Shown here in pieces: positions 10,521-54,234 of a stretch of DNA of 64,000 nucleotides (position 1 is the first letter of the stretch; each line of letters begins with the position of its first letter). The notes under the pieces were generated by a model. The model had not been told where the DNA came from and ran no database searches. It saw only the letters and a program-made list of their open reading frames with translations. The position numbers and the translations under genes are program-made. The DNA comes from Candidatus Altimarinota bacterium. GTDB lineage: Bacteria > Patescibacteriota > Gracilibacteria > JAUYGZ01. The stretch lies in contig JARGOK010000001.1 of NCBI GenBank assembly GCA_029233985.1, forward strand, positions 805,096 through 869,095, in the 5' to 3' direction.

Positions 10521-10529
10521 TGATATAAT
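10521..10529 (+). promoter_or_regulatory. Extended -10 promoter of the giant gene
   Basis: TGATATAAT matches an extended -10 element (TG, one base, then a perfect TATAAT at 10524-10529). There is no good -35 at normal distance, as is usual for extended -10 promoters. Transcription would begin near 10536, about 25 nt upstream of the TTG start codon. Confidence 0.6.
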
Positions 10530-10561
10530 TAAATGAAATAAAAAAATAAACACAAAAACCT

Positions 10562-13500
10562 TTGAGTGATAACTTGTCGACATTGCGGACGGTGCTGGTG
10601 ATCTCTTCCCTCTCTATGCTTTTTTTGATGGGAGTGATTATGATGGTGTTTATAGGTGGTGGTGGTTTGCCTTCCTCTCTTTATGCTTCGGTCACTGATC
10701 AAGATATGAAAGAGGTCGATTGGATGCAATACCCAGCTTTTGCTGATTTGAAACAGCAGTACTTGCCTTTGAATACTGAGGCTGATTTAGATCTCTACCG
10801 TATTCAAGAAACAGATCGTTCTTATCTCTATGGAAATTATGATCAAGAATTTTTGAGACAACAGAATGAAGTGATTGATCGAGTAAAAAATCCTGCGAAA
10901 TATTCTCTAGAAGAAGAAGTGGTTGTTCCAGTTGCTCCAGCGTCAGTTGAACCTCAGGTTGCTCCAGTCGTTCCTCAAGACCTTCCTGTTGAAGAAGAAG
11001 AAGAAGAAGTGATTGATCCTGAAGTTGAGCAAGAAGACGAGGTAGAAGAAGTTGTGGTTCCGTCTGAGGATGACTTGGCAGGAGCTGCGCCCGAGAGTGA
11101 AGAAAGCGTATTAAGTACAGAAGACAGTAAGGAAGGAGTGAGTATTGAGCCAATTACGGAAGAAGATGAAGAAATAGAGGGCGAATTTTCAATAGAGGAG
11201 GAAAATTTTGTGGAAGAAGTTCAAACTGAAGAAGAAAATGTAGAAGAAGTATTGAGTGATGAAGCAGGACTTCCAGTAGAAGAAATATTAGAGGAAGTGC
11301 TTGATGAGGACCAATCTGGTCTTGATCAGGTTTTGAATGTTTTTTCATCAGCTTTTAGGTTTGCTGCTGCTCAGTTGCTTGATGTTGAGGGAGTGCAAGA
11401 GGAAGTGATAGGAGAAATTGAGATTACTGATGAAGAAAAAAGAATTCTAGATGAGAGTGCGACGGTCGAGGTGATTGATCCTGAAGTTGAGCAAGAAGAT
11501 GAGGTAGAAGAAGTTGTTCCAGCTGATCTTGAGGCAGACTTGGAGGTGACTGAAGAACCTCAAGCTATAGAGACTTTAGGGGAGGAGCAAATTGAAGACG
11601 AAGAGACATCTGCCCTTAGTGAAGAAGCAGAATCAAGAGAAATTGTTGATCCAGTTGTTGAAACCCCAGCTGCTCCAATTAATAAAAATACGGTGAGTGA
11701 TGATTATAGGAGGGATGGAGTTCTCAAGGATCCGAATGTTGTGAATGAAGTAGAGGAGGTTGCAGAAGTGATTTTGAGTCTAGATGAACAGTTCTCATTG
11801 CTTGAAACAGAGTATTTGGAACATGGTACAGAGCTCTCAAATGTCTTTAAGGATATAGCACAAAAAGCTGGTGAGGTATTTATCCAGGTGGGGAAAGATT
11901 TTTCTCTTCAATTTGATGTCTTTAGTCCTGAGTCTGCTCTTCGTATGTCATGGGCTGCTCAAGATGGAGTTGTTAATGGTTATCAGGATGGGTTAGCACA
12001 TTTTTGGGTTCCAGAGATCAATGAAGTGGTTTCTTTTCTATATGATGCTGAGCGAGAAACGCTTCAAGAGTGGATTTATCTCGAGCGTCCGATGGATGGG
12101 AAGTTTCAATTTGATCGGCAATTAGAAAATGCAGACTCGTTTTCTGTTCATCAAATCGCTGATCAGACATATGAATTTAATTCAATTGTGAGTCCTTTTG
12201 AACAACGATCTTTTGTGACTTCTCGACCTGTCCTTTGGGATGCGACTGGAAAAGTTGTTGATGATGCGGTTCATTCTTCTTATTACAAAGGACTGATGAG
12301 TCTTCAGGTGAAGGCTGCGCAAGAGTTAGCTTATCCAGTCTTGATTAAGAGAGACTGGGTAATGCCATCTTCTGAAAGTTTGCTTGCTGAAGAGGCTTTT
12401 AGTCCTTCTGAAATTGAAGACCTGAGGCAAGAACAGCTTTTTGATGCGTTTGAGAATCTTCCTGTGAGCTTTCAGAAGAATAGAGGAGCTTTTGATGAGA
12501 AAGTTTTATTTACTGCTGATCGAGCTCATCAACGATATTTCTTTCGTGAGAGAGAAATTATGAGCACGTGGTTTTTGTCATTGGAAAATGTTAATACCTA
12601 TGTTTCACTCTTGGATGGAGAGGCAGAAGATTCAGATCGATATGTGAGAAGTATTTTTGCACAAGATGAGAGTGGAGTGATTGATGGCGAAAATCAGATT
12701 GGCAATAATTCAAATGGTGACCTTGAATTTGAAGGTGGTCCACTCTTTGATAGTGCTGAAGGAAGAGTTTACGGGTACGATCTTGATCAGGATAGTTTTG
12801 AAGATGAAACCGTAAAAATGTGTGGTGATGATGCTTCTCTTATTAATCGATTGCTTGGTGCAGATCTTGATCCATATCATTTTGTTGGATTGACTCAGCA
12901 ATATTCTGTCACAGATAGTCAGGTGATGGTGACAGAGAGAGATGATAATGAGATACTCTCTCATCGTTATGGTGGCGCTAATGTTGATCAGTGGCAAGTA
13001 GGGCAAGGCGGATTTTCTTCTCTCAATTATGAGAATCTATATGAAAATATTGACTTGAAAATTAATGCAGATCAAGATCTCTTCGAACAAGAATATATTC
13101 TTCAGATTGGTGCAAATATTGGGTCAATCGCTTTTCGGTACCCAGAGGCAAATAGAGTTTTTGTTTCTGATGAAGGACTTTTGCAGATACAAACCGACTA
13201 CTGTCAGTTGGTTTTTGATAAGCCATATGCGTATCAGGTAGAAAATGATGAAGTGCATATTTTTGATATGAACTTTGTGGTAGACCGATCAGTGGTTTCG
13301 TTTCGAGGGGAGTCTTTCCCATTTTCTTCTGAAGGATTTGTTTCTGTCCGTGTTCTTCCACATTTGTCATCATGTATTACTCGAGAAGCAACTGCTGAAT
13401 ACATGAGTGTATTGACTGGTTCCGAAGATGATTATTATTTTGTGGGTGAGATGGCCAGTCCTGTTTCTTACCCAGTTGATCCTGCTCTTTATGCTTGCAA

Positions 13501-16500
13501 TACGCTTGATGTTTTTGACCCTGTTGCTGTGAAGGTTTCAGGAGAGTCATTCTCACAGATCTACCGAACAACATTTGGTGGGTCAGCTTTTGATGATGTT
13601 CGATTGATGACACTTCATTCTTTGAATATTATCGATGATGAGTCCAATACTGTAGAAGTTTTTGTTTCGGAATTTATTGATGATATTGATGTCCAAGACT
13701 CTCCAGACGATGCTCAGATTTCAAACAATGACATTGGTATTGCAGATGAGGATCAAGTAGAGAATGTCTCCTTGCTTGATATTCTTCTTTTTGATTCTTC
13801 GGAAGTACTTATTGTTGAAGGACTAACGAGCTCTGAAGACTTTCCAGGGCTTGAGTTTTTGAGAGATGATGTGGATCTCCAAGAGTCGTCTGTTGCTTTT
13901 GCTCTTGAGGTTTCACCAGTTGGATTGCTTTCGATCGACCAAGTTGACCTCTATAAAGCTGCTTCTCAGCTCGCTGAACGAAGACTTCAACAAGAACAAC
14001 AACGTGTGAACACTGAGATCCGTAAAATCCAAGAACAAATCTTTGAACAAGATGAATTGGGTGATGGTGAGAATGAAGAGCTGAGCGTTTTGGAGAAACA
14101 ATTAGAAGAATTGGTGTCTGATCAATTGTTGAGAGGAGCAGCACTCGAAGAAGATATTTTGCAAGAACAGTTGCAGGATGCTACCGCCTTGCTAGAAGAA
14201 GTTCAAAGATTGGAAGAAATACGTCTTGCAGAACTTGAAGCAATTCGACTCGAAGAAGAACTTCGGCTTGAGCAAGAAAGATTGGAGGAAGAGGCTCGGT
14301 TGGCTGAAGCAGCGCGAATTCAAGCTGAGGTGGGTGATGAGCGTACAGGTCTGGATGTAGAAGAAAGTTTGACTCGTGGTGAGTTTTTCTCTGGTTCGAT
14401 TAGTGAGGCTATTGTGACAGATTTGGGAGGTAGTTTTGAACTTCAGTTCATTGAATTAGATGGAGACTTTACTGAAGTTCGGTTTATTGAAAAAGAAACA
14501 GGGGTATTGAAAGGATCTTTGATTTTGGATCTTGTGGAATTGGAACGACAGTTGTTTGTTCAGTATGAAGAGCTTCAAGGAACGACATATGGTTCAGCAG
14601 AAGATGAGGAGCTAACTGAATTGGAAGGTGAAGAAGGCTCAGATCAAGCTTTCTTTCGATGGATAATGGAGTCTTATGCACAGGAAGATGATCTCCTTTC
14701 TAGTGATGATCTTGAGTCAGAACGGTCTACACTTGATAGTATTTCGTCAGAACTTACTCCGTTTAGAGAAGATTTATTTGAAGCGATCCGGTCTGGTCAG
14801 CTTTCTTTTGATCTTGATAGTTTGGGATTGGATATTCTTTCTGAAGAAGGAAAAGTATTGGTAAAACAAGACTCGGCTTTTGAATTGGTTTCACAAAAAG
14901 TCTTGTATCTTCCAAATACTAATAATGGAGCTGGGATTTTTGTTTGTCCTGTTGTAAGTACTAATTCTTTGGAACAAGTCAATGATTCTTGTGATGGACG
15001 GCTGGTTGTTGCATCGAATATGATTCGTGATGGGACCTCTACTGAAGAGGTGGGTGCTACTATAGGTGAGGTTCAGGTTTTTCTTGTGACTCAAGGTGGT
15101 GATCCCGGCACGTATGATGAGCTTCAAAATGACCCGACATCGTATTATAAGGTCCAGGGAAGGACCCTCGCGGCAGCGGGAATTTTTGGGTTTGCAAATC
15201 CTTCAGAATTACTGGGTTATGGTTTGCAAGATCAGGTTTTGCAAAGTGCATCAGATATTGTTGTTGTGGAAAGTGAGGGGCAGTTCTTTCAGGGAACTGT
15301 TGTTGAAGGACAATCTGAATCAGATTGGTTGGCGTATCGAAATGAAGCCCTCGGGTTTTTTGAATCATTCTTTGTCGATCCTGAATCAAAAAGTGGAGCT
15401 CTTGTTGCTTCTGATGAGTTTGGAAATACCATTCGTTTTCAAACACGTGAAAGTTCTTTTATGTGGGATCATAATAATGAGGAAGATGAATTTTCACTTC
15501 GTACTGAGCTAGGGCGACTGACTCGTATAAATGAAACGAGTCGGAATGCAATAAGTATTTCTCAGTATGTGGTTTCTGAAGCTCGTTATGAACAAGTCTT
15601 TTTGCTTCAAAATCGGCCGGCTGAAGATTTTGAAAAAGTTTTAGCTGTTGATTCTGAATCCGTGAGTGTAGTTCCTTTAGACAATGGAACTTTTCAATTG
15701 AGTCCAGTTGGGACGGAAGAAATATTTGTTTTGCAGTCTTTGCAATTGATTGACTCAGAAAGTGTAGATTATTCGGAATTGGTTTCCACGCAATATGAAG
15801 ATGGACAATTTACAGTACGCTTTCCAGTTGATGAAATGAGCTTTCCAATCGCCTTGGGATTGAACCTTGATTTTCCTGAGAGTGTCAGTTCGCAGGTTTC
15901 TGAGGTGATATCATCAGATGAATTGGAGTTTGTTTATGGGTATGATTTACCGATTGATCTTGTTGAGGCGAATCAGATTATTGAGACAACTCAATCCGTT
16001 GTAGACCTTGCTGATATAGATATTCAAGGAATTGTTGATGCGACTACTGCTGAAATGGTTCGAATTAGTGGAGATGTATCGGTTAGTGGTGAGCTTCGAC
16101 TAGGTGATGCTCAACTTGTGTTTGTTTCAAATAATAGCGATGGTAATGAGTTTGTTTCGGATACTTTTATTACTGTCCAATCTGTTCGATTTGAATCTCC
16201 TGCTGTTGGAGAGTCTGGTGGTTTTGCTCTAGAAGCGTCATTAAGAGTAGAGGGAGATGTGGTTTTAGAACCTGGAACAACTGTTTCTCTTGATGGTGAT
16301 TTGTATGTTGCTCAAAATCTTGTTTTGGAAGGATCTGCACAATTGGAATTGAATTCGGCAGGCTTCTTTGACACGAGCCAGACGGAGCTGAGTATTGGTG
16401 GTGATTTTGAAGTGGCTTCAGATGCAGATTTTAAGCCAGGTACTTCAGTGATTCGTTTTGTGGATAGTGAGCAATCGACAACTGTTGCTCAGGATATGGT

Positions 16501-19500
16501 TTTTTATGATTTAGATGTCACCGTGCCGGGGAAGCAAGTCTTTTTTGCTGCAGGGCAAGAGCAAACTGTTTTGAATGATTTTGTTGTAAAGGGGCGAAAA
16601 TTTGAATTGGTTGAGCTACGATCTACAGATCTGGAGTCTGTTGTGATAGCTGAGAATGGTGAAGAGGTGGTGATTGCGCCTGAGCAATGGCAAGTGAATG
16701 TTGGAGGTGAAGCAGAGTTGAGTTTTGTTCACCTGGGTGATGCACAGAATCTTTCTGGATATGATCTAAAGGCACGACCTTCAAATAGTTTTGGAAATAA
16801 TGAAGGATTTGATCTTGACCCGGTGTGGGATGGTGGAGGGTCAACAAATAACTGGTCTGAAGATGCGAACTGGGATAGTGGTCTCGCTCCTGGAGGAGCT
16901 GATACGGCGACCTTTGATGGGACGTCTACGAAGAATGCTAATGTCGATGTGAGTTTTGGAGGGACGATTAATGTACTCAATATAAATAGTGGATATACGG
17001 GGACGATTACTTTAGAGCGATCGCTGACGGTTAATAGTGCTACGACATTTGTTGATGGGATACTTGATTTTAATGATGAAGACTTTACTAGTCTGTCTCT
17101 TAGTATTAGTGGGACTAATACTCGAACGCTTAGTATGGGGTCTGGAGCGGTCACTCTGACGGGAACAGGTACTGTCTGGAATAGTTCTACGACTACTAAT
17201 TTGACATTGAATGAGGAGACGTCGACTATTTCTATTACCGATACTTCTGCAACTGACAAGACCTTCAATGGAGGTGATGAAACTTTTTATGATGTGACAT
17301 TTGATGGAACTGGGACTGGAGATCTGATTGTCTTGGGTGGGAATACGATGAATACTTTCTTGGTAAATAATGGGTCTTCAGCTACTGATATTCAGTTTGA
17401 AGCGAGTGAAACACACACCTTTACGACTTTAAATATTCAGGGAAGTTCAGCTCAGCTTGTAGATATCTTAAGTGATTCTGGCAGTACAGCTCACACGATT
17501 AGTGTTGCAGATGAAAGTAATATTTTAGTAGCTTTTGTGAATGTTACTGACAGTTCATTGAATCCCCCGATTGGAAATGCAGGTTATGACGGAACTGGAA
17601 ATAGTATGACGAATGGAGGGAATACGATTAATTGGTTTGATGGTGCAGCGTTGATATTGAATTCAGGGACGACGACTCTTGATGTAGGAGTTGACCTTGA
17701 AACGACTGTGACTGGACTTGGAACTCAAACTGGAGTTCATCAATGGGATGTCGATAGCGCTTCATTAATGGCTCTTAACATGCCGTTTGATAGTGGAAGT
17801 ACTCAGGCTGATTACACAAATGGAACGGTCAATAATGGAACGACTCAAGGAGATGCTGTCTACTCAACGTCTGGTCAAGTAGGAGGATCCCTAGTGCTTG
17901 ATGGTACTGGAGATTATCTCAGTATTCCTGCTAGCTCAGACTTGGATATGGGAGCTTCGGATGTTTCTATCTCTATTTGGGTGAATTCAAGTGCGAGTTA
18001 TAGTGGCGAAAGAATTATCGTGGAACACGCGGTTTTCCCTGCTACTGACATGTACCAATTAACGACTGTAGATGATGATACCTTCCGAGTGAATGGTACT
18101 AATATGAATAGCACAGATGGCCCACTTGATTATACTGTGGACTTTACTGATGGGGATTGGCATCACATGGTAGCAGTTATGGATGATACCAATAACATGG
18201 CTTATCTCTACTATGATGGGGTTGAAGTTGCTAGCAAGACGATGAATTCTTCAATTACTGCAGGAAGTGGAGTGACCTATCTCGGATCACGGGGAGGAAG
18301 TAGTTTGTTTTTTGAAGGGTCATTGGATGAATTCCAAATTTACCCAAGTGCGCTTTCTGCCGAACAAATATCACAACTTTATAATGACGGATCTGCAAAC
18401 ATTGCTGGGCCAACAACTATTGTGAGTCAAGAAACAAGCCTTACAGAAGTATGGGACCTTGATATTACTCCTCTTACTCTTGCTGGAGTTGCTGCTGGTT
18501 CCGTGATTTCGGACGCGAACAAAGATCCAGATAATGGTGTGACTATTGGTGATAACTTTTCATCTGCTACGGTTTGTTTGAGAGGAGACACAAACACTGA
18601 TTGTGGGTCTCCTGCGTTGCCAACTACGCTAGAGGCTTCAGATGACATTGTTTCACTTATAGATTTTGGTGCTACTACGGGAATGCCTACGGGAAGTATT
18701 GGAGTGTATAAGTGGAAGGTGGATAATGCGCCTTTTGCAATATTAAATCTGCCATTTGACAATGGTACTACCACCCAAACGGATTTCAGTACAAATGGAC
18801 TGGATGCCACTATGGTCGGAAATATCGCTCATACATCAACAGGATGTAAAGTGGGAGGATGTTTGACTTTGGACGGAGCAGGTGATTACTTGAATGTAGC
18901 TGGTGATTTGGGTGATCCAACTGAGATGACGGTTATGTTGTGGTGGAAGCGTGCGAATATTAATGGAGGTCTGGAATACTTGATGGATGCTCGAAGTGGA
19001 GGAAACTGGTGGATGCTTCAGGATTATGTCAGTGGGGCATGTGCTGATGCGAATGGAAACGTGTGTTTCAACGGTTTGGTGGAAACGCCTGCAACAAACT
19101 TTGCAAATGATACTTGGGGGCATATTGCTTTTACTGCTAATTCTACTGAGACGAAAGCTTATGCAAATGGGACTTTGGTCGATACAGGGGCGGGTCTTGA
19201 TCCTGATTTAGGAACAAATTTTCGCGTTGCAACTCGTTTTACTACAGCTGATGAATTTACTGGTCAATTAGATGAGATAGCTCTCTTTGACAGAGTTTTG
19301 ACTGTTGAGCAGATTGCTCAAATTTATGCTGATAATAATGCCGGGGATGGAGGGCCTACACAGATTGTTTCTGAAGAGATAAGCTTGAGTGAAGTGTGGT
19401 CTTTGCCGAGTTCAATTCAACGTCTGACAAATTCTGGGGTTATTCTTTCTTCTGTTGCTTCGACTAACTCAGTAACGGTTCAAGATAGTTTTGGGCAGAA

Positions 19501-22500
19501 TGCTACGGCTTGTTTGAAATTTGGATCTGAAGCTGCTCTCGATGGATGTACTTCGACAAACATTTCTGAAGGTGGTGGAGGAACGAGTGATATTTATAGT
19601 CATGTCCAACAGGCTACAGCTACAGCTGGTTTCCCAGCGGGAACAACAGGTGTTTATGAATGGGATTACCAGAGTGGAGTGCCATTCATGGTTGGAAATT
19701 GGCCTGGAGATGAAGAGTCAGATGGAGTAAAAGACTTTAGTGGGCAGTCACCAGCTAATGATGGAACTGCTAGCGGGAATGCAGCTTACACTTCAACAGG
19801 GTGTAAAGTTGGAGGGTGTTTCACATTTGATGGTACTGATGATTATATCGATATGGGAGCTGGTACGAGCTTGAAATTCACTTTGGCGAATTCATTCTCT
19901 GTGGAAGCTTGGGTGAAGATTGCGACCGGTACGAGTGGAGATAGAACGATTATGGGAAATACTTCCGGAACGGATGCTGGGTATCAGATGCGAGTGCTTA
20001 CCGATGACAGTATTCGATTTATCTTGGTGCAAAATGGATCTAACTTTACTTACTCTGACACCTCGGTGTTGACTGAGGATGTTTGGTATCACGTTGTTGG
20101 GACCTGGGATGGTTCTACTGTAAGGACCTATGTCAATGGAGCGCTTGACTCAACGACAGGTTCTGGCGGTACTGTTACAACTATAACGAGTACGAATAAT
20201 TTTCTCATTGGTTCGCAGCCAAATGGTTCGAATGATTTTAACGGTCAAACTGATGAACATCGTGTTTATGGTAGGGCATTGAGTCTTGCACAAATTGCTC
20301 TTAATGATACTGATGGTGATAATGGAAGAGGTGGGCCAACCATTATCGATAGTGCTGAAACAACCTTCGCTGATCAGTGGTCTTTCCCCAATTCAGTAAC
20401 TATTATTACGACTTCTACTGGTGCGATTGGAGGATCGGTTTCATCGTCTAACTCGGCTTCTATTATTGGAGAGATTACGGGGACAGAGGTTGCACTAGCG
20501 AGTAGTTCAGTGAATCCGCTTGCCGATATTAGTTCTGCTTTCACTGAGCCTGGTACTTGGACAGGAGGTTTGGCTTATCAATGGCAAGTGAATAGCGGTT
20601 CGGGATACGTGAATTATGCTGGCTTGGTGCTGCCTGGAGATGCTGGACCGACTGATTTTAGTGGTCAAAATAATGATGGAACTTTTGTAAATGATGCCGC
20701 TTTTACTACTACAGGATGTCAGGTAGAAGGATGCTTTGTTTTTGATGGAACGACAGATTACATTAATATGTCTGATAAGGATGATTTTACTATTACAAAT
20801 AGTGGCTTTAGTGTTTCTGGTTGGATAAACCCTGATGTATTGCCTCCTGCTAGCTCATCAAATAGAATGTGGGTTGCTATTAAAGGGGCTCCATCAAACT
20901 GGGAGTGGGCTATTTCTATCAATGACAACAGTACTGAGTTTGGAAAATTAGTGATGCAAAAATTTAGTAGTGCTGGATCTGGAGGTATTATGAGAGCTTC
21001 GAATACTAGTATTTCAGCTTCAACATGGACTCACTTTACTTATGTATGGTCTGACGCGACTACTTTGCCTGATGTGTATATCAATGGAGTCTTAGATAAT
21101 GGTGGATCTTCTTACACTTCTCAGCCGCTTTTCAACGGTACGGGACCACTTTATATCGGTGAACATAATACGGCTAATGAATTAGAATTTGATGGAAAAA
21201 TCGATGAATTTCAAATCTACCCGCGAGCCTTAAGCTCTAATCAGGTAGCACAATTTTATACGGATGGATCAAATGTTGATGCTGATGATAGGGCTAGTCC
21301 GACTATTATTCATGCTGAAGAGCATGATGGAGGTGAACTATGGAAGCAGTTTTACACAGAAATCACTTCTGCTGGTAGTGCTGGAGCTGCTTTTGAAGCG
21401 ACTAATTCTCCAGTAACGATTACTACGCCAACGGTGACTATTGCTCATGTAGCGCCAAGTCTCAACTCGCAAGAGAGTGGTACGGTAGCGGTTAGTCTGA
21501 CTTGTACAAGTACTGATGATTTAAATGTGAACATTGAGATTTCTCATAATGCGTCAGGATCTTATGATGGGGATCTGAGTATCTCAAACCTTCTCGTAAA
21601 TACAGGAGCTCATAGCATCACGATAGATCAGCAGGCTGATAAGACTCTTTTGACGAATGTGCCTTGTGATGACACGACAGCTGACAGTATTACTTTTGAC
21701 TGGGCTTCTAGTACAGATGGTGTTGGTGCTTTCTCTGCTGCTGATGATATGTCTCTTCGCTATAGAGTCCCGTTTGGTGTTCCTCAAGACACCATTTCTC
21801 TGACCTTTGATGTGAGCAATCCCGTTGATTTCACTTTAAATGGAGGGACAGGAACCCTTGATATTGCAAATGATCTCACGGTGGTGCCTTTTGGTTTGGG
21901 AACGGCTGCTGCGGGGTATCAATGGCAATACACACCTTCTGGAGGATCAGCTACAAATTTTATGGTGCTTAATATGCCAATGAATGCTGGAGCTTCTATT
22001 AAAGACTTTAGTGATGGTCTTGATGGGACTAATTCACATAATGGATCCCTAGTAGGGAATACCGTTTACACGACTTCTGGTCGTGTTGGTGGAGCGATGG
22101 AATTTGATGGGAATGGAGATTATATAGATCTGACTTTTGGTGAAGATCTGAGAGACTCAGGGACTATTTCTCTTTGGGTAAAACCAGACACTGTTATCAG
22201 TGATGATTATTTCATTTGGTATGGAAACAGTGGGGTAACTGGTCAGACTCGAGCAATGAGGATTACCTCGAGTTCATTTAACTTTGTTGGTTGGAATGCA
22301 GATTCAAATACCATTGGTACAGCAGTAGCTGGAGATTGGCATCATGTGGCTTATAGCTGGGATGAAGATCATATTAGAATATACATAGATGGAATACTAG
22401 AAAGAGATGCTAGTGTGAGCGCTCTTACTGAGCCCGCTGCTGATAATTTTCGAATTGGAAATCATCTTACCTCTACCACCGCTGGTTTAGATGGGGTTTT

Positions 22501-25500
22501 GGATGAAGTTCAGGTGTTTGATAGAGTCCTTACTCCAGAGATGCTTGCTCAAATTTGTAAGGATGGAAATGGTGGAGTGACGTGTAATGGTCATGGAACC
22601 ATTAATCAAAGTGCTAGTGCAGTAGCTGCACCTACTTCAATTGTTGCTGAAGAAATTCAATACGGTGATGTATGGGATCTCAACATGACTCCGATTGAAG
22701 CGGATGGAACGGTAGGGGGTGAAATTGATGATAGTCCGGATACGAATGTAACCATCACAGATAGTTTTGTGACTTCTGGTGTGGTGTGTTTGGGAGTAGG
22801 TTCTGCGCCAGGGACTTGTACTGGTGTTTCAGATATAGTGCCTGATCTTGATGAATCAATAGCTTCTCGAATTGAAGGAATGCCGATTGGAAGCAAGCCT
22901 GTTTATCAATGGGCTAATGATCCTGATGGAGCTGGTGGCTCTGCTCGTGAAAATTATTCTACGGTGCAGGTTCCATTTAATGTGGGGGGAGCGCAGCAAG
23001 ACTTTAGTGGAAATGATTATGATGGTGAAACTGAGGGTGCGATCTTTACTTCTGATGGAAAAGTAGGAGGAGGGGTGGAATTTGATGGGACCGCTGATTT
23101 CATCGATTTTGGGACTATCACTGACATCGACCAAACTGGTTCAGTCTCTTTCTGGATGAATGCTGATACTATATCTGGAACAGGGTATCCAGTCTTTTAT
23201 GGTGTGAATGCTACTGGCCAATCTCGTTCTATGCGTCGTACTGGATCTACTCTTATCTTTACTGGATGGGGTACTGATTCTCCAGGAGTCGGGACTATTG
23301 TGGCTGACACTTGGCATCATGTGGTATATACCTGGACTGGAGAAGATGCTGTTGAGATCTGGCTTGATGGTGACCTTGTTTGGTATGGAACGCTTTCTCT
23401 CAATCAAGTGGGTACACATAATTTGAGAATGGGTCGACGGATAGATAATGTAGACGCTTTTGACGGAACCCTCGATGAGCTTCATGTTTATGATCATGTG
23501 ATCGATGATGAGTATATTGCTACTCTTTATGCTCAAGGGACTGCTGGAGATCAAGCGCCAATTACTATTGATGTGGAAGAATACACGGCTATTGGCGAGC
23601 TCCTTGAAATTCCTACAGGTGTTTACCGTCTTACTGATAGTGGAATCATTGGGGGCCCAAAGACGACTTCTAATATTGCGACCATAAGCGATGACTTCTC
23701 TGCTGGTGTGCTTTGTTTAGGAGAAAACAGCTCTCCTACTTGTCCGAATGTTGACACTTCTCTGGAGCTCGGTGCGAGTATTACTTCTCAGATTGATTTC
23801 CCTACCAATGGGGGAGGAGGTCTCGGATGGGAAGTGGATGCAGCTCCTCATCTATTGGTGAATTTTCCAATGAATAAAGGGGCGACTCTTGAAGATGTCA
23901 GTGGAAATGATGCTGACGGGTCTGTGGTCGGAGGTGTGCGTTATACTTCTGATGGAAAAGTTGGAGGAGCTTTGAGATTTAGTGGAGGGAACAGTTATGT
24001 GACGGCTACGGCAAATATGCCTGCAGTCGACACTTCTACTGGAGGGACTTTAAGTTTCTGGATGAAGCCGACTGACTTGAGTGTTGACCAGCAAATTATT
24101 TCTTTTGGAGCAAGTAGTTCTACTGGTCGAGCTAGAAACTTGATTTTGAATAGTACTGCTGCGGGAGTTGCAAATCTCTTCTTTCAGGGATGGTCTGCAG
24201 ATGAAGACATCTCAACGGCAAGCTTTACTATTGATGAATGGCATCACATTGCATACAGCTGGAATAGTGACTTTGTTCGTGTGTTTATGGACGGTGTTCA
24301 AGTGCTTGAGCATACTGAAGCTGGTTTAATTCCTATTCCGACTGTTCCACATCAATTTGTCTTGGGTGAGAGAGGGGACCTTGGAGGGACGAATTATGAA
24401 GGTTATCTGGATGAGGTGCAGGCGTATGCTGTAGTGCTCAGTGAGGCTCAAATCGGACAATTGTGTGCGGACGGAAATAATGGAGTGACTTGTAATGGTC
24501 ACGGAACGATTAGCCAAATAGCACAAGGAGTGCCTGGTCCATCAGTTATTTTAGATGGAAACTATGCGGATACAGAGGTTTGGAGTTTAGATGTGACACG
24601 TATTTCAGGTGGAGGAATTGTGGCAGCTGCCGCACGAACGACAGGGAATACGATGACGATTGATGATAGTTTTGATACAGCTGGGCGAGTTTGTCTTGGT
24701 GCTGATAGTGCGCCAGCTGACTGTACTGTGGTAACAGATGTGGGTGTTGATTTTGATTCAGCTGAAGATGTGGTGGCGAAGATTGAAAACCTAACAGGAG
24801 GAGATGCTGGTGCATACCAATGGAAAGTAGATGGAGTGGATTACATGAATATTAATGTTCCATTTAATCGTGGAGATTTACAAAACTATGGAGGAGTTGC
24901 TACGACAGCTGTTCCTAATGGTGGGTCATTTATTGAAGCAGGAACGGACTGTAAAGTGGGAAGTTGTTTCAATGCTGGAGGCTCTGAGTCTTGGTCTTTA
25001 GGAGATGTCGATAGTTTCCAAGGAGTTCAAAACTTTACCGTTTCGCTGTGGATGAAGCCGAGAAACTCAGTGGATAATACGTTCTATCGTGCTGTTTCTG
25101 AAGAGAATGTTGCACTTATAGGTCGATATGGAGATGTAGGTGGGACTAGTACTGTTGCATTTTATGCAGATGACAATGCCAGTGGATGGTCACATTCTAC
25201 GACAGATATTTCGAGTGGAGGATTTAGTATGTCTGATGATGATTGGTATCATGTGGTGTGGGTCAAAGAAGGAACCGAAGGGCGTGTGTACGTAGATGGA
25301 GATCCTACTCCTATTGGAACAATGGCTTTACCTTTGAATTTGGGGAATACTACTCGACCGCTGTGTATTGGTGGATATGAGTCATCTGCTGGAGGGCCGT
25401 GTGATAACGGACAGTTTTTCCTTGGTCATCTTGATGAAATTCAGATTTATCCAAATGTACTGAGTACAGATCAAATTACTCAGCTGTGTACAGATGGAAA

Positions 25501-37500: not shown

Positions 37501-40500
37501 CAATGAGCTCTTTATGGGGCAATCAACTGCTGGTGGTGACTTCAGGATTGTTTTGAACCATACAACGACTCATGACACTGGAGTCGACCTTGATCTGAAT
37601 CAATGGAATCATATGGTGTTGACTTGGGATGGTACTCTTGCTCGGGTCTACAAAAATGGAACTGAGGTGAGTTCATTTGGATATACTGGTCAGCTGAGCT
37701 TTGATACTTGTGAAGGAGTGATTGGTATGGACCTTGATAATGGATGTACCGGTAGTCCTGGTGATTATTTCATTGGTCAGATCGATGAAGTACAAATGTA
37801 TCCTTTTGCTCTTGATCCGAATACGATTGCTGAAATGTTCACCGTGAACGCTGCAGGTGATGCTGGGCCGGACTTTATCTCAAGAGATGCGAACCGTGTG
37901 GCTGATGAATGGGTCTTACCTGGATCGGTCCATGCTATCGACAATGCTACAGGAGTAGTTGGTGGTGAAACTGCCTCTGTGAACACTATAACGATTATTG
38001 ATGATTTCTCGACTAATGGTATTGCTTGTTTGAGTGCAGCTGAATCTCCGACAGACCCTCGACCAGTGACTTGTACTGGTTCAGAAGCAAATATCGCTGC
38101 GAATTCTAATTCGGATGTTGGACTCAAAGTCACTAATCTTCCAGTAGGAAGTCAGGCGGCTTACCAGTGGAATAGTGCAGTTGCTACGCCATTGATGGAG
38201 GTCTATTTCCCAATGGATAGTCTTGCTGATGGTGAGCTTGATGATTTTAGTGGAAATGCTGCTAATGGTACTCCAGAAGGGGATGTTAGCTATGTGAGTA
38301 ATGGTTTAGTGGGAGGAGCCTTGAGTTTTGATGGATCAGGTGATTATGTTTCATTCCCTGTTTCAGATACCTTGGATAGACTTACGATGAGTGTCTCGTT
38401 TTTCCCGACAAGTTTTGCTGGAACTCCTGCGGTGGTGATGATGCCGAATAATGCAGGGGGAAGTAATAACGAGTTTGTGGTGTTTGTTCTTCCTTCGGGT
38501 GAGTTACGGGTGAGGATGAATGAGTCTACCACTCAAGATACTGGAGTTTTTGCTGACCTTAATCTTTGGAATCATTTAGTGGTTTCATGGGACGGTACGA
38601 CGGCACGTGTTTACAAGAATGGTGCGCTTGGAGATAGTTTCGCTTACTCTGGTCAATTAGACTTTGATACTTGTGATGCTTTACTTGGGATGGATACTGA
38701 TAGTGGATGTATAGGTACTCCAGGCAACTACTTCTCGGGTCGTATAGATGAATTCCAGCTCTATGATCTTGCTTTGGATGCAGATACGATTTCTGCGATG
38801 TACACGACTCTCGATGCTGGTAATGCAGCTCCTGATTTTATTGATAGCTCCCAAGTCAGCATCAGTAGTGATCTCTCTGTTGTTGTTCATCGAATACATG
38901 ATGGTACTGGTGAAACGATCTCAAATATTAGTTCTGTGAATTCTGTTTTGATTACAGGCCAACTTAGTACTGGTGATATTGATATTACCAACTCAGTAGG
39001 TGGGAATGTTCAGGAAGATGAGAGTATTGTGTCTGCATTCACTGAACCATCTCCATGGACAGGAGGACTGGGTTACCAATGGCAAGTCGATTCAGGAAGT
39101 GGTTATGAAAATATTATGCTTTTGAATCTCCCGGGTGATATCAATGCTACTGATATTAGTGGAGAAGGGAACAACGCTAGTTTTGTAGGAAATGCTGCTT
39201 ATATTGATGGATGTCAGATTGAGGGATGTTTTACTTTTGATGGTACAGGAGATGCACTTAGTAGTCCGGCAACTGGACTTACAGGCGTAGTTGGCTCTGT
39301 GAGTACTTGGATCAAGACTGCTACTGATGGTGATATTTATAATACTCATAGTGCTTCTGCAAATCAAAATACGCTATGGATTACGGGAGGTACTTTGACC
39401 TATCGACAATGTGGAGGAGGCTCTTGCACTGATCTGACTGCTACTGGAGTATCTGATGATGCTTGGCATATGATTACAACGACGTGGGTTGCTGGTGGAG
39501 ATCGCAAACTCTATGTAGATGGGGTGTTGGTCGATACAGAATCATCAACTCCTACTTTCACAAAGGGAGTCAATTTTGAAATCGGGCAAAAATCATGGGG
39601 AGCAGACTTCTTTGATGGAGAAATTGATGAGTTTCAAATGTATGCTCGTGAGTTGAGCTCTGTTCAGATTGCTCAATTGTATACTGATGGGACAAATGTC
39701 GATGTGAATGATCGAGGAGGGCCTACTCAGATTGTTGCTCGAGAACACAGTTTTGGAGAACAATGGAAGCTCTTTAACTATGAAATCTCAGCAGCTGGTG
39801 CTGGAGTGAGTGGTGCTGTGGAAGCAACTAATTCGCCAGTGACGATCAGCGATGCTGCGGTGACGACGCTTGATTTCGTGACGGATGCGAGTAGTTCCTT
39901 TAATCCAGATGCTGTTTCTCAAGAAATGAGAGTGAGTGATCGGGTCAGCTTTACGTGTACGAATACTGACAGTAATGTTCGAGATATCCTTGTGGAATAC
40001 AATATCAATGGAGCTGGTTTCTTGCCGGCGACACTTGAGAGTGCAACGGTAGTCGGAGGGTCTGCTTTGACGGTGTCTGGTAACTCCATCTTGGATGCTG
40101 ATTGTGGTAGTTCGCCAGATACTATTGGTTTTGTGTGGGATTTCGTCACTGATGGTTTGACTTCATCTCAAAGTAATGTGGTGTTGCGAGTGACGGCTGA
40201 TATTAACGCCCAACCGAATGATTCGACACTTGATTTCGACCTTGTTCCTCCGATCATTATTACTGTATGTACAGGGCAAGATTTGAGTACGCTAGGTGCT
40301 AGTCCTATAGATGATATCGTCTGTAATTGTGCTTCTGGCACTATTACTGCTGATACAACAGGACCGCTCTTTACAGCACAAACATATCGGAGCCTTACTT
40401 TGAATAATTCTTGTAGCTTGACGCAAACAGCTACTGGGTCTGGATCTATTGTGAAGACCAAACTCATTCTTACTGAACATGTGACTATTGGAGCTTCTGC

Positions 40501-43500
40501 ATCGATCAATATGGATGCTCGAGGAGCAGCAGCTGGTTATCATATTGACCCTGCAGTGAGTGAGACAGATGCTCAGGTAGGTGGGCGAGGAGCTTATGGA
40601 GGTTTGCCCGCTGGAGATCAAACGAATGTTGATTGGGCATATGGAAGTATTACTACTCCAGATCATCCTGGTTCGGGAGGGAATGATCTTTCATCAGGAG
40701 GATATGTTTCTTTGGATATTGGTGGATCCTTTATCCATGATGGGACGATTTCTGCTACTGGTTCTTCGAATGGACTCTTTTCTGACAGGGCTGGCTCGGG
40801 AGGTGGAGTATTGATTGAAGTAGATGGTGAGTATTCTGGTGATGGAGTGATCCGTGCGAATGGTGGATTTAATAATTTTGTTGGTCTGTCTGCTGGTGGA
40901 GGACGTATTGCCTTCAAATATACGACTGCTGGAAGTATTAATGCAACGGCTCCAGAAGACACTTTTACAATAGAGAGTTATTCTCTTTCTGGTGGGACAA
41001 GTTCTGGAGGTTCGGGGACGATTTATATTGAGGATGTGAATACTCACACTGCAGATGAAGGGATCTTGATCTTGGATAACAAACGATCTAATGCTGGTAC
41101 ACAAGGAGCAGGGAATGGGACAGGATCGTATGGTGCTCCTCTTCCAAATGGATCGACTTTCGAAGAAGTACGTATTACCGATGGAGGAAGAGCCCTTGCT
41201 GAAATTTTGAATGTCAAATCACTAATGAGCATGACGAATTTTGCTGTAATGTCACATGAGTCGCATGATGGGACCGTTGGTGCAACAGGTGTGAAGACCT
41301 TGTTTATCGATGGGCGAGTAGGTGGAATTCCAACGGCTGATGTGGTTATTGATGCGACTTCTGAAATTGATATTGATTCGCGAGGTTATGCTTCAGAGTA
41401 TCGAGGTGATGGAAGTGGTGCAGCTGTTCTGAAAGCAGTTTCAGGTGAGGCGGGTGCTTATGGAGGGAGAGGCGGGAACAATGATGGAGAGGTTTATGGA
41501 AGTATTATAGCTCCAGTTGGTCCTGGTTCAGGAGGGTTTGGAGTAAGTGGCGGGGGAGCTGTACGGATGTTTGTGAATGATTTTAGTTTTGATGGATTGA
41601 TTTCAGCTAATTCTGCAGGCGGAAACACTTCTTTTGAGCCGGGTTCAGGAGGAGCCGTTTATATTCAAGCAACAGGTGCTTTGTCTGGTGCAGGGACGAT
41701 TACTACCAATGGAGGATTGGATAATACGACTTTGGGAGTTTCTGGTAGTGGAGGGCGTGTAGCATTTTATTATGATAGTGATGTGAATGATGACATAACT
41801 CCTGATAATACGTCTCCTGAAGTTCTCTACACCATTGAATCGGCATCTGATAGTGGGACTCTTATTGGAGGACCTGGAACCATTTATATTGAAGATGATG
41901 ATGTGGCCTTGGGGGATGTAGATGGTGAGGGTGATTTGATCGTCAATGGACGAAATGGCAGTACCAATTATGGAGGCCAATCAACGCCATTGTTTGTTCC
42001 TGTTGGTAGAGGTGGTGATACGCAGTATACTTTTGAGAATGTTACGGTGATAAACAGTGCAAACTTGCTAGTAGATGCCCCTGGGGTTTGTGACTTGAAT
42101 GGAAGCTCTGATCAGAATGCCTTGGTGATAAAAGGAGCAGTAACAACTACAGGTGTCACCAATGGATCATTTACGAGAACTCTAGAGGAGGAAAATATCC
42201 ATTGTATGGATCGTTCTCATACGTACACCAATATTCCTGCTGGGTTTTATATGAATGATACAGTTGGTAGCTCGATCACGATTCAGCCTGATGTTGATAG
42301 CTTTCTTCTGGATAAGAAAATTACTAATGGAACTCGGTTCTTTGCAGCGCTTCGGTCTGACTTACTGTACACCGAAGGAGCAAGTGTCAGTATTGATCTG
42401 ACTGGAGTCAGTATCGATGGTGATGCAACTCGAACAGTGATTGATGCACCTGCGACAACTCATATGGCTGAATACCATACGATTTATATTCCAAATAGTA
42501 ATTCATCAAATGGAGTTTATATTTGTCCTGATGCGACACAACTGTCTCATGTGGTTGACGGTGGAGCCAACTGTGGGACTCCTGCTTACTTCTCTAGTGT
42601 TGAGGTAGATGGACAAACAAACAAAGTGGTAGGGACTGTGACTCCTTCCCCAGCTGTGAAGGTGACCTTGGTAAATGCTGATGATGATGGTGGAGCTCTA
42701 GCAGGAAATAGTACTGATCAATACAAGGTTGAGAACCTCTTTGGGTCTGGAGGAGGACCTATCACGACGACGGTAGAAGGAACTTGTAAAAGAAACGATG
42801 AGTCTACGAACTGTGCTGATACCGATACAATTCAGTTAGTGATCAATGGTGCACTTGATAACACAACAACTCCTTCATCAGGGAATTGGAGCATCAGTCC
42901 GAGTATTTCTATCGTAGCGACTGATGTGATTAGTGTCTTTATTGATGGAGCGATTGAAGCTGATGAGGCTGTAGCGGTGACGGTTTATGATGGGACAGGT
43001 GATTTGACGAGTATGCAATTGATAGGCGAACGCCTTACTGTTGGATCTGATAATAGTCTGACTGTGACGAATACTTCATTGAGTGATTTTGATAACTCAG
43101 TTTCTTCAGATGAAGATGTTTTCCATGATGTGAATGCTGGAGCTCTTACTGAGGTCGGAGGTCATGATGAAGAGTTAGTTATACTTGCTTCAAATACTTA
43201 TCAGCCTGGTGGGGCGGTGACGGTGCATGATGTACAGATTGATGGGATTCTTACTGCAGATGCTAATACGATTACGGTGAGTGGGTCGTGGGAAAATAGT
43301 AGTACTTTCAATGAAGATACTAGTACGGTTCTGTTCACTTCTACTAATTCTGAACTGATCACATTAAGTGCAGCTGAAACTTTCTACAATCTGACTTTTG
43401 ACGGAGCGGCTGGAGTTTGGACTGCTGATCAAGACATTATAGTTACAAATACAACGGATATAGAAGCCGCTACTACTCTGAATGCTGGTACAAATGCATT

Positions 43501-46500
43501 GACCTTTAATGGTTCGATTACGAATACTGCGGTTCTCTTTAATGACCTGGAGCTGATTTCAGATGATATCGATTTCTTAGGTGGTGCTGGTACTGTGACA
43601 GTAGGTGCGAATACTGGAGGTACGTTCACGATCAAGGGTGCTACGGATTCTACGAGTATTGGTATGGGAACTGGAGCTGCTGGAACGCTTTTGATTGATG
43701 ATACGGATATTGCAGCATTTGCTGCTTCTGCTAATGGAGACTTGGTGATTGGTTATCCTACTGGTACTGCGGTGCTGGATATAGATGATGTGGATCTTTC
43801 GGCAGTCCAAACTGACTTTACTCTTCAAGGTGGAAATATTTCTCTTCAAGAAATTTCGCTTGATACTCAGAGTACGTTTAGTGTGGTTGCAAATGGAGCC
43901 ATTACTGATGGAAATGGTGCTGCTAATAATGTGGTGACAGGGGGGATTCCGAATAGTATTCTCTTCGATGCTGATACGGGTATCGGTACCTTGGCTGATC
44001 CAATTGAATTTGGAAATTCAGTAAATGATACATTAGCTGCTCGAACGAGAAGTTTGACGACTGATAATGGTATATTCCTTGACCATGTAGGAACTTCTAT
44101 GACCTTTGGAACAGTTGGGTCTGTAATTGGTGTGAGTACATCAAATGATGGTGATATTGATATTAACGCAGCAAATGTTATTACTGCCTTTACGGTCGCA
44201 GTCGCAGCGAATGGGGCGGGTGACCTGACTATTGATGCGCTGGGAGACTTTCCGATTGGAGGAGCGATTAGTTCTGGAACGGGAAATATTGTACTGACTA
44301 GTGATGATGGTATTACGTTGGCTGCTACAGGAAGTATTGCGACTGCAGGAACGGTTATTATCGATACTGATACAAATGATATTGGTTCTGCTAGCCTTGA
44401 TTTCGAATTGATTGATGGAGGAGTTATTTCAGTGACTGATAACGATATTGAAATTATTGCAGGTGGGATTATCCTTGGAAGCACTTCCGAGACGGCTGTT
44501 TCAGCAGGTACAGGAGATATTACTTTGAGGCCCTCGGTCATTAATAGTTCTATTGGTGTGGGAACTGGTTCAGGATCCTTTAGTGTCTCAGATGCAGAAT
44601 TCGATGACTTGTCTTCTACAGGTACGATCACTATTGGTGTGGGAGGTGGAACTGGTTTTGTGGATATCAATACTACTGATATCTCTGATGAAGCGTATAG
44701 CCTTACTGTTCTTGGAGGAGCGATGTCAGTAGATGAACTGACTTTGGTAGATGATGCTACTTTACAATTGATCTCGACTGCGAATATTCAAAGTAATATT
44801 GGAACGAGTACCAATGTTGTTATAGGAGGAACAACTGGTTCAGCACTCTTTGACGCTGCTACTGGTGTAACGAATATGGGGGTTGATACAGACATTGTAG
44901 CTGCTCGTTCTACGACTTCAAATGCTGTGCAAATCCAAAATACTGCTACCGATGGAATACTTGATATTGGTTCTGTTGGAGGCGTGAATGGTTTATCAGC
45001 TCTTGGTGGAAGTCCTATTAGCGTAGAAGCGACTGTTGGTACAAGTTCTTCCTTGACTGTTTCACAACCAATCACGGCTGCTAGTGGAAATATTTCACTC
45101 ATAGCTGATAATGGTGTCAGTTTGAATGCTGCAGGTGCTGATATCAGTACTTCAGGAACTCTTAGTATCGACGCTGATTTCGATAATAGTGGTGCTGGTA
45201 CCTTTATACAGAGTGATGCGGGATCATTAGTTGATATTGATGATAATGTCATTACGGTAGTGGCTGCGACTGTCGATATGTCTGCTGGAACACTTGATAG
45301 TGGGTCTGGAGCGATCAACTTTGAGCCAGTAACTCTTACAGATACTGTTGGCCTTGGTAGTGGATCTACTGGAACCTTCAACCTGACCGAAATAGAGCTC
45401 GAAAATATTACGAGTACTGGTACAGTTACCGTTGGTTTGGCGACTGGTACGGGTGCGATTGATATTCATGATACTGGTGATGATAATCTTGATCTTTCGG
45501 GAGAAACTTTCAGTATGACTTTGCAGGGAGGAGAGATCACAGTTAATCGTATTACTATGCCAGATGATACGACTCTCCAGTTGCTCGTGAAGGATAATGT
45601 TTCTGACATTATTAATGATAATGGCGCAGTGACAAATAATGTCACTATCGGTGGGACATCTGGATCGCTTGCAATGGAATCAAATGAAGTCTGCGGTACA
45701 GCAGCTACTGGATTTCAAATTGCAGTTGATAATTTTGCACTAGACTGTGACTCGATGGTTATCAATCAAACTGGTGATCTTACTATTTCTACGGTAGGAA
45801 GTGTCACAGGTATTAGTCTTCAGGGGGGAGGAGTCCCTAGCTCTAGTATTATTGTTGATGGAGGTGGTTTGACTATTAATGAGGCTGTGACTGACACTAA
45901 TTCTGGAACACTTGGGTTGGTCTCAGATAATGGAATCTTAATCAATGCGGATATATCGAATAACGGATTGATTTCTCTTGATTCTGATTGGGATAATAGT
46001 GGAACTGGAGCCATTACGACTACTGGAAGTCGAACAATGACTTCTACTACTGATAGTATTGCTTTTGTTTCAGCTGGAATTTCTAGCCTTCCTGCGCTCG
46101 TTTCTTCACTTAATGAAAACGTTTCCCTTGGTTCTTCTACTGCATCAGCGACGATATTTACTGCTACTGGAGACCTTGCTGGGATGACAGCTGATCTGAC
46201 GATTGGATCGAATGTGACGCTTGTCTTGGGTGGTAATGATATTACTATGGGTGATATTTCTAATGATGGAGTGCTTGAGCTACAAGGTGATGAAACAGTG
46301 GTGATCACGAGTGGAGTCAATGATACAAACTCAGGGGCTTGGAGGTATGTAGGAGATGGAGATGGGAATGCTGATGTTTATTTGATGCCTGACTTTGGGT
46401 TTTCTGATTATTATGACCTTGAAATCAATGATGCTGGCGTGACATCTGACACCTTTAGCTTTGGTACTGGGGGTCTTCAGATCGTAAATGATGTGACGAT

Positions 46501-49500
46501 TGCTGATGGGACTTTGACGGGAACAACGGGACTTTTGAGGATATTTGGAAACCTTAGTATGGCTGCAACTGGAGTCTTCAATGATAACGGAGGAACGGTT
46601 GAACTTGGTGGTGTAACGCAAAATGTCTCTGGAGACTTTACCTTCAATAACCTCACAAAAGTGGTAGCAGTTGCTGATACGCTGACTATTGCTGATGATT
46701 CGACGATTACTACTAATGGTCTTCTCAATCTCCAAGGAGCTTCAGGAAACCTCTTGACCATCCGATCCAATCCAGATGCTGGAACGACTCAATGGGATAT
46801 TAATCACCAGGGAACTGAAACGGTCTCATTTATCGATCTCAAGGATGGTGGGTGTACGGTTGCTCCTGCGAGTACTGAAATCTTTGTGAGTGATGGTGTG
46901 GATAGTGGAAACAATGATAGCTGTTGGGTCTTTGGAAATCTTATCGATATTTCTGGTACGGTTTATACTGATAAGGGAATTACGAATATCGGTTCTGGAA
47001 AGACTGTAGCTGTTTCTATTAATGGTGGATCAGCAGCAACGTACTTTGCAGATACGACTGCTGGTGGAGCCTTTACTATTAGTAATGTGCCAATTATTAC
47101 TGATGATGTCTTGACAGTCTTTATTGAAAACGAGACGGAAAATGCTGTAGCAATAACGAAAACAAATGGGGCTAATATTACAGGTCTTGACCTGTACCAA
47201 AACTACTTTATCGTGCGAAACGATGCTGCTGGTCAGACGACGAGCGATGATATCGATACTGGGAATAATTTAGGTGATAATGATTTTACGTCGCTGATTG
47301 CTATCGATGGAAGTGATAATGTTACTTCTTCTGGACTTGGTATTGTTGTCCCAAATGGCGAATGGCAGTCTGGAGCAAATGTTACAATTGGGGGAGGAGA
47401 TGAGCTTGATGTTCGTGGAGGTACGTTGACTATGGACGCTAATGTATTGACCGTGAATGGAACGTACCGGCAGTCGTCAGGGACCTTTAATGGAGGATCA
47501 GGTGCTCACACCTCAAATGCTTCTCTCTTTGAACTGAGCGGAGGTACATATAACTCTTCGACAGGAACGACCACAGTGAATACAGGAATCTTTAGCTCTG
47601 CTACCTTTGATATTCTTGGAGGAACCTTCAATCACAGTAATGGGAAGTACTTCTTCTTTAGTCGAGGAACACAAAATCTCAATCCTGGAGGAGCAGTTTT
47701 CTATGATGTGGATACAGAAGTGATCAGTGGAGGAAGTCTGCAGTCTATTCTTCTGGAATCAGATATGACTGTTGATGGTACACTCGTTACTGGAGGAGCA
47801 GGAAATGCTAATTCTGGATTCTTTTCTGATTCAACTTCAAATGTGCGTACCATTACTTTGAATGGTAACTATGCTGCGACTATTGCTGGTAATGCTATCT
47901 TCGGAGATGATGAATTGGAAGTGGTCTTTGCAGGTGATACCACTCATACGCTGACTCGAACTGCGAGTGATGTTTCGGCTGTCTTTAAATTTGATAACAC
48001 AGGTGAAACGGTAAATCTTGCGACCGACTTCCTGATGGCCGGAGGATCGATTGAGTTTACTGCAGGTGCTGGAACTTCATCGTTGAATACGAATGATAAT
48101 GATTTAACTTTTAGTTCTGCTGACTATGTTCAAGCAGGAGGAGTCTTTAATGGGGGAAGTGACACGCTTCTCTTTAACGGTACGAGTTCTACCTTTACTT
48201 TGAGTGGAGGGACGTTTAACGCTTCTAGTGGAACGACCACTTTTGCTCCGACTTCATTCCAAAATGCGAACCTCACTATCTCTGGTGGGACCTTTAATCA
48301 CTTAGGAGGATTATTGAATCTAGCTGGGCAGGGAACTATTGATTTTAATCCTGGTGGAGTAATATTTAACGACGTGACCTTTGATGTAACTGATGTAGGA
48401 GGTGGTCACCCAACAAGACTCGGTGGAAACATGACCGTCGATGGAGATATTCTCTTCTCACACAATAATGGTGGGGCTAGTGACGGTCTGGTCTCAGATG
48501 CTACAGCTACTGATTATACGATTACCTTGAATGGAAACTATACTTCAGATAACTCATCTGGATTTGGAGATGAAGATATTACTTTGCTCGTTGCTGGTGC
48601 CACTGATACTACTTTCACACAGACTAATGGTGCGTTTGATGGAAATATCGATGTGGCTAAAACAGGTTCTGCGAGATTTACACTGACGACAAATATGAGC
48701 TTTGCTGGAGATACTTTCGATGTCAGCTCGGGTATCTTTGACCTCGAAGGATTCGATTGGGATCTGAATTCAGCGACTTTCAGTAATGATTCAATCGTTG
48801 AATTCCATGGTGATGAAACGATTTCTGATGTGGTTCAGGATACCAATTCTGGTCTCTTCCGAGTGACTGGAGATGGTGCTGGACAGGGATCGACAAGCTT
48901 TGCTCTTGATAATATTGCTACGGGAGTGAGTCTTGATTTCTATGACTTTGAAGTAGCGATGGATACTGCTACTGAAACTCTTACTCTTCTTGGAGAAATG
49001 GTGGTTGAGAATGATATGACTATTACATCTGGTACTTACCAAGGTGCTGGGGTAGCTGGAGGATTTACTACTACTGTCAATGGTTTGAACACCTTTACTC
49101 TGAATGGTGGAACCTTCAACCAAGGAGATGCTGATCATATCGTAGTTGGAAACATGGTCATCAATAGCGGTACGTACAATGGATCGACGGATACGAATAG
49201 CCGAAAGATTGATGTGGGAGGAGATTTTGATCAAAACGGTGGTACTTTCACTTCTACAGATTTTGAGTTGCAGGTAGCTGGAGACTTTGATCGAGCTGGT
49301 GGTGGAACCTTCACTCATGGTGGAACTGGTTCGGCAGTGGTCTTGGATACTGCTGCAAGTACTCAAGTTTTGGGGGCTTCTACCTTTATGGACTTGAAGA
49401 TCGAGACGCCTGCTAAAAATGTTGAGTTTGAAGCTGGTGTGTTGCAGACCATTGCTACTGGAGGAGATTTGATCGTGACTGGTACTGCTGGAAATGAGAT

Positions 49501-51780: not shown

Positions 51781-51790
51781 CTTTGCACAA

Positions 51791-53188: not shown

Positions 53189-53210
53189 TCATTTGATGAA
53201 TACATCTTTT

Positions 53211-53242
53211 AAAAGGAGTCCTATGTTTAGGACTCCTTTTTT
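53211..53242 (+). terminator. Intrinsic terminator after the exported protein gene
   Basis: A 13-bp perfect stem, AAAAGGAGTCCTA (53211-53223) with TAGGACTCCTTTT (53228-53240), a TGTT loop and a run of T. It ends the transcript of the 248-aa protein and shows that the next gene must start downstream, at 53280. Confidence 0.92.
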
Positions 53243-53279
53243 GATATCTTACTTTTGTTTTTTCTTTTTTTCTTTTTCT

Positions 53280-54221: not shown

Positions 54222-54234
54222 TTATTTCTCATTT

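Follow-up and report, generated by a model that had tools for sequence, protein, structure and literature searches.

The gene at positions 10562..50614 (plus strand) of the 64,000-nucleotide stretch of Gracilibacteria DNA analysed here (the window) encodes a protein of 13,350 amino acids. This protein is probably an adhesive fibre of the cell surface that is anchored without sortase, its C-terminus being held by membrane-bound WxLIP-like partners. We are dealing with a real, uninterrupted single gene, since the ORF list gives one open frame with the start codon TTG, and our own translation of 10562-50614 contained one stop codon, the terminal one. A mass of 1.39 MDa and a pI of 4.05 were computed from this translation, and at the base composition of the window the chance of 13,350 stop-free codons is about 10^-388.

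Domain organization of the giant protein

The protein, all features of which are encoded on the plus strand, starts with a hydrophobic segment that may serve as a signal peptide or as a signal anchor (amino acids ~8-38; 10583..10675). This is the only segment with a 19-residue KD mean above 1.65, and the same scan revealed no other convincing transmembrane segment in the giant and none at its C-terminus. By eye, no strong AxA cleavage site was seen in the giant or in its homologue in G001, a genome from another genus of the same family. An acidic region rich in Glu, Val and Pro was recognised by its composition (amino acids ~101-400; 10862..11761), the net charge of the first 500 amino acids being -113. 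The N-terminal module that follows (amino acids 334-1202; 11561..14167) is conserved in G001 and in a paralogue on contig C5 of the host's own genome, and it contains a DUF7948 domain (PF25778) at amino acids 784-915 with a Pfam E-value of 4.9e-23. Reading of the sequence predicts a coiled-coil linker thereafter (amino acids ~1124-1265; 13931..14356).

The larger part of the protein is taken up by two super-blocks. Super-block 1 (amino acids ~2131-7790; 16952..33931) comprises ten LamG (Laminin_G_3) domains identified with Pfam (17900..27379) and five Gly-rich units (28019..32371) with GGGGR(V/I)A motifs at amino acids 6040, 6329, 6626, 6925 and 7215. Super-block 2 (amino acids ~7760-10970; 33839..43471) is a shorter copy, in which six LamG domains, likewise identified with Pfam (34805..39673), are followed by fewer Gly-rich units than in super-block 1. 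The two super-blocks are colinear at 37-41% identity, which points to the second being an old segmental duplicate. Altogether, 16 LamG domains (PF13385) score above the curated cut-off, and they represent all but one of the 17 LamG domains of the whole genome. No enzyme domain was detected in the giant above the Pfam cut-off.

Super-block 2 leads into a tail rich in Ser, Thr, Gly and Asn (amino acids ~10880-13040; 43199..49681), which by eye looks like a beta-helix and part of which aligns to the G001 homologue. Pfam gave no match over amino acids 10,301-13,350, and a comparison of the tail with the PDB gave no credible one. A filamentous haemagglutinin was considered and rejected, since these searches of Pfam and the PDB yielded neither FHA repeats nor a TPS domain. 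An earlier note on this DNA, made by reading the letters, had listed an acidic N-terminus, a DUF7948-like region, a coiled coil, two super-blocks with LamG domains and a haemagglutinin-like helix. The first two and the super-blocks are borne out by the present data. The coiled coil stands as a prediction, but it is not conserved, the equivalent region of G001 being rich in Pro and Glu; the haemagglutinin-like helix comes down to a resemblance by eye.

Two further proteins of the same genome carry the DUF7948 module at their N-terminus; other giants of this genome were sought by homology alone. The C5 paralogue is a 3,991-residue open frame (G000:C5:243871-255843, minus strand), in which the module is combined with Calx-beta repeats and a dockerin domain that scores above the cut-off (40.7 bits). 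It adjoins a frame of 711 amino acids with an N-terminus that resembles cohesin as well as the N-terminus of the protein encoded by 57730-61506 in the window. The second is a protein of 2,809 amino acids with SBBP and Kelch repeats (G000:C3 ~1000647-1009076, plus strand). Thus, these secreted DUF7948 (PF25778) proteins have the N-terminal module in common with the giant, but they differ from it in having Calx-beta repeats and dockerin, or SBBP and Kelch repeats, and in lacking its LamG blocks.

The downstream gene cluster encodes WxLIP-like proteins

Six genes for secreted or membrane-anchored products lie directly 3' of the giant gene, all on the plus strand, and their order is kept in G001. 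The first (50779..51780) specifies a WxLIP-like protein with a signal peptide, a WxLIP-type beta domain and a C-terminal transmembrane segment, as judged from an iterated profile, PDB matches and a structural model. It is followed by a gene for a small secreted protein, probably starting at the ATG at 52442 (52442..53188), which occupies the position of a small WxL protein and has an orthologue in G001 with 32% identity. This small protein matched no family in Pfam, PF13731 (WxL) included; hhalign gave no profile link for it, and no significant alignment between it and the giant. Two more WxLIP-like proteins were recognised with the iterated profile (53172..54221 and 54187..55269). The fifth gene (55310..57589) encodes a secreted DUF4215 protein (PF13948, 7.5e-27) with a weak dockerin-like segment at its C-terminus, the PF00404 match of which (E 0.0028, 18.3 bits) is below the cut-off of 22.9. 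The sixth (57730..61506) encodes a secreted protein with Big_5 domains (PF13205, 3.4e-18), a C-terminal transmembrane segment, a weak alpha/beta-hydrolase match and, by eye, a cohesin-like N-terminus; it has an orthologue in G001. Cohesin is unproven in this last protein, as PF00963 was not matched, and a cohesin-dockerin pair among the window's neighbours was rejected because neither PF00404 nor PF00963 scored above the cut-off.

The proteins encoded at 50779, 53172 and 54187 form one family with homologues throughout the class, as found by iterated profile searches. In these class homologues, the same residues are matched by PF06030 (WxLIP_PGBD), in several cases above the curated cut-off, and this cut-off is exceeded in 54 of the 353 class genomes; PF06030 did not match the window's own proteins at an E-value of 0.01. 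When a profile built exclusively from proteins of the window and of G001 was compared with the PDB, the top matches were 9i25_C (E 0.0055) and 9i1y_A (E 0.0067), both of which are WxLIP entries from E. faecium, and the next match had an E-value of 0.68. An AlphaFold model of a WxLIP-like protein was of low confidence (pLDDT 44). Strands predominated in its first domain and a helix lay at the C-terminus, the confidence for the second domain being insufficient, and Foldseek returned the WxLIP structures 9i25 and 9i1y for it among many other Ig-like folds in a ranking that was not specific. The chain of iterated profiles and the identity of the top PDB matches support, at the level of sequence comparison, the assignment of the three downstream neighbours to the WxLIP (DUF916) superfamily.

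Dense clusters of WxL and WxLIP genes were also seen in other genomes of the class (G304:C5 and G301:C32), and in family f30 a single genome may have as many as nine WxLIP matches. Some of the WxLIP-like proteins in these clusters have a C-terminal LysM domain after the WxLIP domain.

A candidate WxL-like anchor at the C-terminus

The giant ends in a domain of ~204 amino acids (50000..50611) that shows 52% identity to the G001 copy and that we regard as a candidate WxL-like anchor. It is not a WxL domain by sequence, since PF13731 found no match at an E-value of 10 in the giant or in the whole genome and W-x-L motifs are absent from this domain. PF13731 itself scores above the cut-off in 4 of the 353 class genomes, and in some of these its matches lie near WxLIP genes. 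The WxL-like character of the domain is suggested by its position and by remote similarity: hhalign aligned it, at a probability of 84%, with a group of small secreted proteins from other families of the class, the genes of which neighbour WxLIP-like genes, while 16 control segments of the same giant reached at most 0.5%. The templates were picked partly by a C-terminal motif, so that alignments at the C-terminus may be inflated, but it is a different part of the domain that gives the 84% match. The similarity to the PF13731-positive proteins of the class is weak (10%), and the group of small secreted proteins is linked to the latter more weakly than to the domain, at 51% and over the last strands only. 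An iterated HMM of the C-terminal domain retrieved only two orthologues from the class loci, and PDB searches with the alignments of this domain and of the small proteins found nothing. An AlphaFold run on the C-terminal 305 amino acids as a single sequence failed (pLDDT 33) and was not used.

The attachment-like end proposed previously is therefore supported in a modified form, namely as a WxL-like domain with WxLIP-like neighbours, which the earlier note had not identified. A sortase-anchored surface protein, which should end in an LPxTG motif, a hydrophobic stretch and a positive tail, was rejected as a candidate: although the genome does encode a sortase, the giant has neither an LPxTG motif nor a C-terminal transmembrane segment.

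Proposed function of the giant

The export signal, the 16 LamG domains, the lack of an enzyme domain and the cluster of surface genes downstream together argue for a secreted fibre or adhesin, which is the best reading of the data and agrees in this respect with the earlier proposal of a long fibre for contact with a host or surface; a role in host contact is plausible. In the model that we infer, a strongly acidic fibre of ~1.39 MDa would be exported through its N-terminal signal, and the two LamG/Gly-rich blocks and the long beta-helix-like tail would project from the cell. Anchoring would be achieved by docking of the C-terminal WxL-like domain to the ectodomains of the WxLIP-like proteins encoded directly downstream, the C-terminal helices of which would hold them in the membrane. 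The most likely ligands of the LamG domains are sugars or proteins of a matrix or of another cell, and the Gly-rich blocks may contribute to binding glycans or proteins on such a partner. The giant would then serve a bacterium with a small genome as an adhesive organelle, an assembly that could be decorated or reinforced by the DUF4215/dockerin-like protein and the cohesin-like one.

Instead of adhering to partner cells, the giant might coat the cell that produces it, or degrade or remodel polysaccharides for nutrient capture. We consider this unlikely, since the giant itself is without an enzyme domain above the cut-off, even though LamG is a member of the concanavalin-like lectin/glucanase superfamily and the cluster offers the weak alpha/beta-hydrolase match together with dockerin- and cohesin-like segments. 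There is also a precedent: for the 39,678-residue protein of V. archaeovorus, both the degradation of surface polysaccharides and the formation of a coat have been proposed (PMC10066038).

Attachment of the giant through its N-terminus is also conceivable, though unlikely. The hydrophobic segment, which is clear and for which no strong AxA site was seen in either genus, would then be an uncleaved signal anchor and the C-terminus the distal tip of the fibre, with the WxLIP-like neighbours serving another protein, for example the small secreted one (52442-53188). Against such an arrangement stands the match between the C-terminal domain and small proteins beside WxLIP-like genes, and the G001 giant, too, is directly followed by a WxLIP-like gene. 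Moreover, known large WxL proteins have their WxL domain at the C-terminus (PMC10599100). These observations favour anchoring of the giant through its C-terminal domain.

Integrity of the gene and its conservation in the class

The host genome consists of 1,658,297 bp in 5 contigs, with 96.7% completeness and 0.07% contamination. The giant gene makes up 2.4% of it, so that the previous figure of about 4% was an overestimate. No sign of a chimera or a collapsed repeat was found in the frame. This view is supported by the absence of N from the window, by a longest exact direct repeat within the frame of only 29 bp, located in the acidic Glu/Val/Pro-rich region, and by a GC3 that stays at 0.26-0.32 over nearly the entire length (0.38 in the last 350 codons) and resembles that of the adjacent surface genes.

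In G001, contig C18 carries a frame of 10,041 amino acids that is homologous from the giant's N-terminus onwards and runs off the contig end, and contig C8 carries a frame of 1,182 amino acids that is homologous at the giant's C-terminus and also runs off the contig end. A VanW gene upstream of the giant is common to the window and C18, and downstream of the frame on C8 the genes of the window at 50779-61506 recur in unchanged order. The edges of C18 and C8 have no k-mers in common, and C18 ends inside a local repeat, a common cause of contig termination. The simplest reading is that the two frames are parts of a single orthologue with a length of at least 11,200 amino acids. False giant ORFs usually stem from repeats, but with internal copies as strongly diverged as these (60% amino acid identity for the best pair, less for the super-blocks), with no N, no long exact repeat and a uniform GC3, and with an orthologue of the giant in another genus that has the same neighbours upstream and downstream, it is extremely improbable that assembly fused shorter genes or expanded repeats into this frame, and the single frame described previously is thereby confirmed.

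The C-terminal domain is rare, being detected in 3 of the 353 class genomes at an E-value of 0.001, and the N-terminal module was detected in 5. No match to the giant's C-terminus was found in the family's third genome, which is fragmented, and no relatives were found in viral contigs. In several genomes of the class, homologues are broken by TGA only. In the NCBI code 25 (SR1 and Gracilibacteria), TGA is a sense codon. The window reads normally with TGA as a stop. Taken together, the host would seem to belong to a lineage of Gracilibacteria (Patescibacteria) with the standard genetic code.

Other families of the class likewise have LamG giants encoded next to WxLIP-like genes. One of these, in G144, has 7,077 amino acids; another, of ~5,400 amino acids in G147, has an open frame only with TGA as a sense codon (code 25). 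The latter frame (G147:C31, 12903-29102 in locus numbering, minus strand) lies beside genes for small WxL-like and WxLIP-like proteins. In G146 and G279, the large neighbours that occupy this position (at least 3,610 and 2,772 amino acids, respectively) gave no LamG match. As the association recurs in this way, it is not a peculiarity of a single genome. Whether it reflects a general principle is, in our judgement, evenly poised: members of the class may generally rely on a divergent WxL/WxLIP system to anchor LamG fibres of megadalton size without sortase. In these fibres, the N-terminal DUF7948 module and the C-terminal anchor would be kept and the adhesive middle would have grown by block duplication.

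Relation to known systems

WxL clusters of Gram-positive bacteria typically combine a WxLIP with two WxL proteins, a small and a large one (PMC10599100). The large protein ends in a WxL domain (PF13731) with two W-x-L motifs, and the WxLIP consists of DUF916 (PGBD), DUF3324 (HBD) and a C-terminal transmembrane segment, with a signal peptide. Binding of WxL to WxLIP and to peptidoglycan is a further mark of these clusters. The interaction has been solved in E. faecium, PDB entry 9i25 being entitled as a WxLIP bound to a long WxL. The present cluster is alike in having a large secreted protein with an anchor-like C-terminus, a small secreted protein and WxLIP-like proteins with a signal peptide and a C-terminal transmembrane segment, all adjacent on one strand, with the giant taking the position of the large WxL protein. 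It differs in probably belonging to Gracilibacteria, in a C-terminal domain without W-x-L motifs and PF13731, in having three WxLIP-like genes and a large partner of 13,350 amino acids, and in the extra genes for dockerin-like and cohesin-like proteins.

Giant ORFs of up to 39,678 amino acids (V. archaeovorus) are known from Omnitrophota, and smaller ones have been mentioned for Patescibacteria (PMC10066038). As described there, the Omnitrophota giants likewise are very long secreted proteins of reduced genomes with a proposed role in cell contact; they have few recognised domains, and the V. archaeovorus protein has 42 predicted transmembrane helices (PMC10066038), whereas a single hydrophobic segment and 16 LamG domains are seen in the giant described here, for which there is also a likely partner in anchoring. 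Giant1-5 of Apilactobacillus kunkeei (3,000-8,000 amino acids) are also giant extracellular proteins that take up a notable share of a genome of ~1.5 Mb, but they come from a different phylum and are encoded by five consecutive genes rather than by one giant gene with accessory genes; the paper makes no mention of LamG or WxL (PMC12863079).

Giant adhesin-like ORFs in reduced genomes and WxL clusters are thus already known, but the literature searched did not describe, for this class, a megadalton protein combined with a plausible anchoring partner, and no paper in it mentioned Gracilibacteria together with WxL. The findings bear on the question of how Patescibacteria attach to their partner cells, and the giant ORFs of small genomes have usually been left as unexplained adhesins. 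Since relatives of the giant's conserved accessory genes have a solved structure with ligand, the anchoring step is directly testable. In addition, the genomic signature of a LamG giant, a WxL-like domain and a WxLIP-like transmembrane protein can be used to find the equivalent organelle throughout the class, including the lineages in which TGA encodes Gly.

Lastly, a tmRNA gene lies directly upstream of the giant gene (9483-9913, plus strand; Rfam RF00023, 97.6 bits), and its predicted tag peptide is unusually long with 30 residues. Further upstream, two genes that by eye are photolyase/cryptochrome-like (4904-6265, plus strand, and 7276-8760, minus strand) are located less than 4 kb apart.
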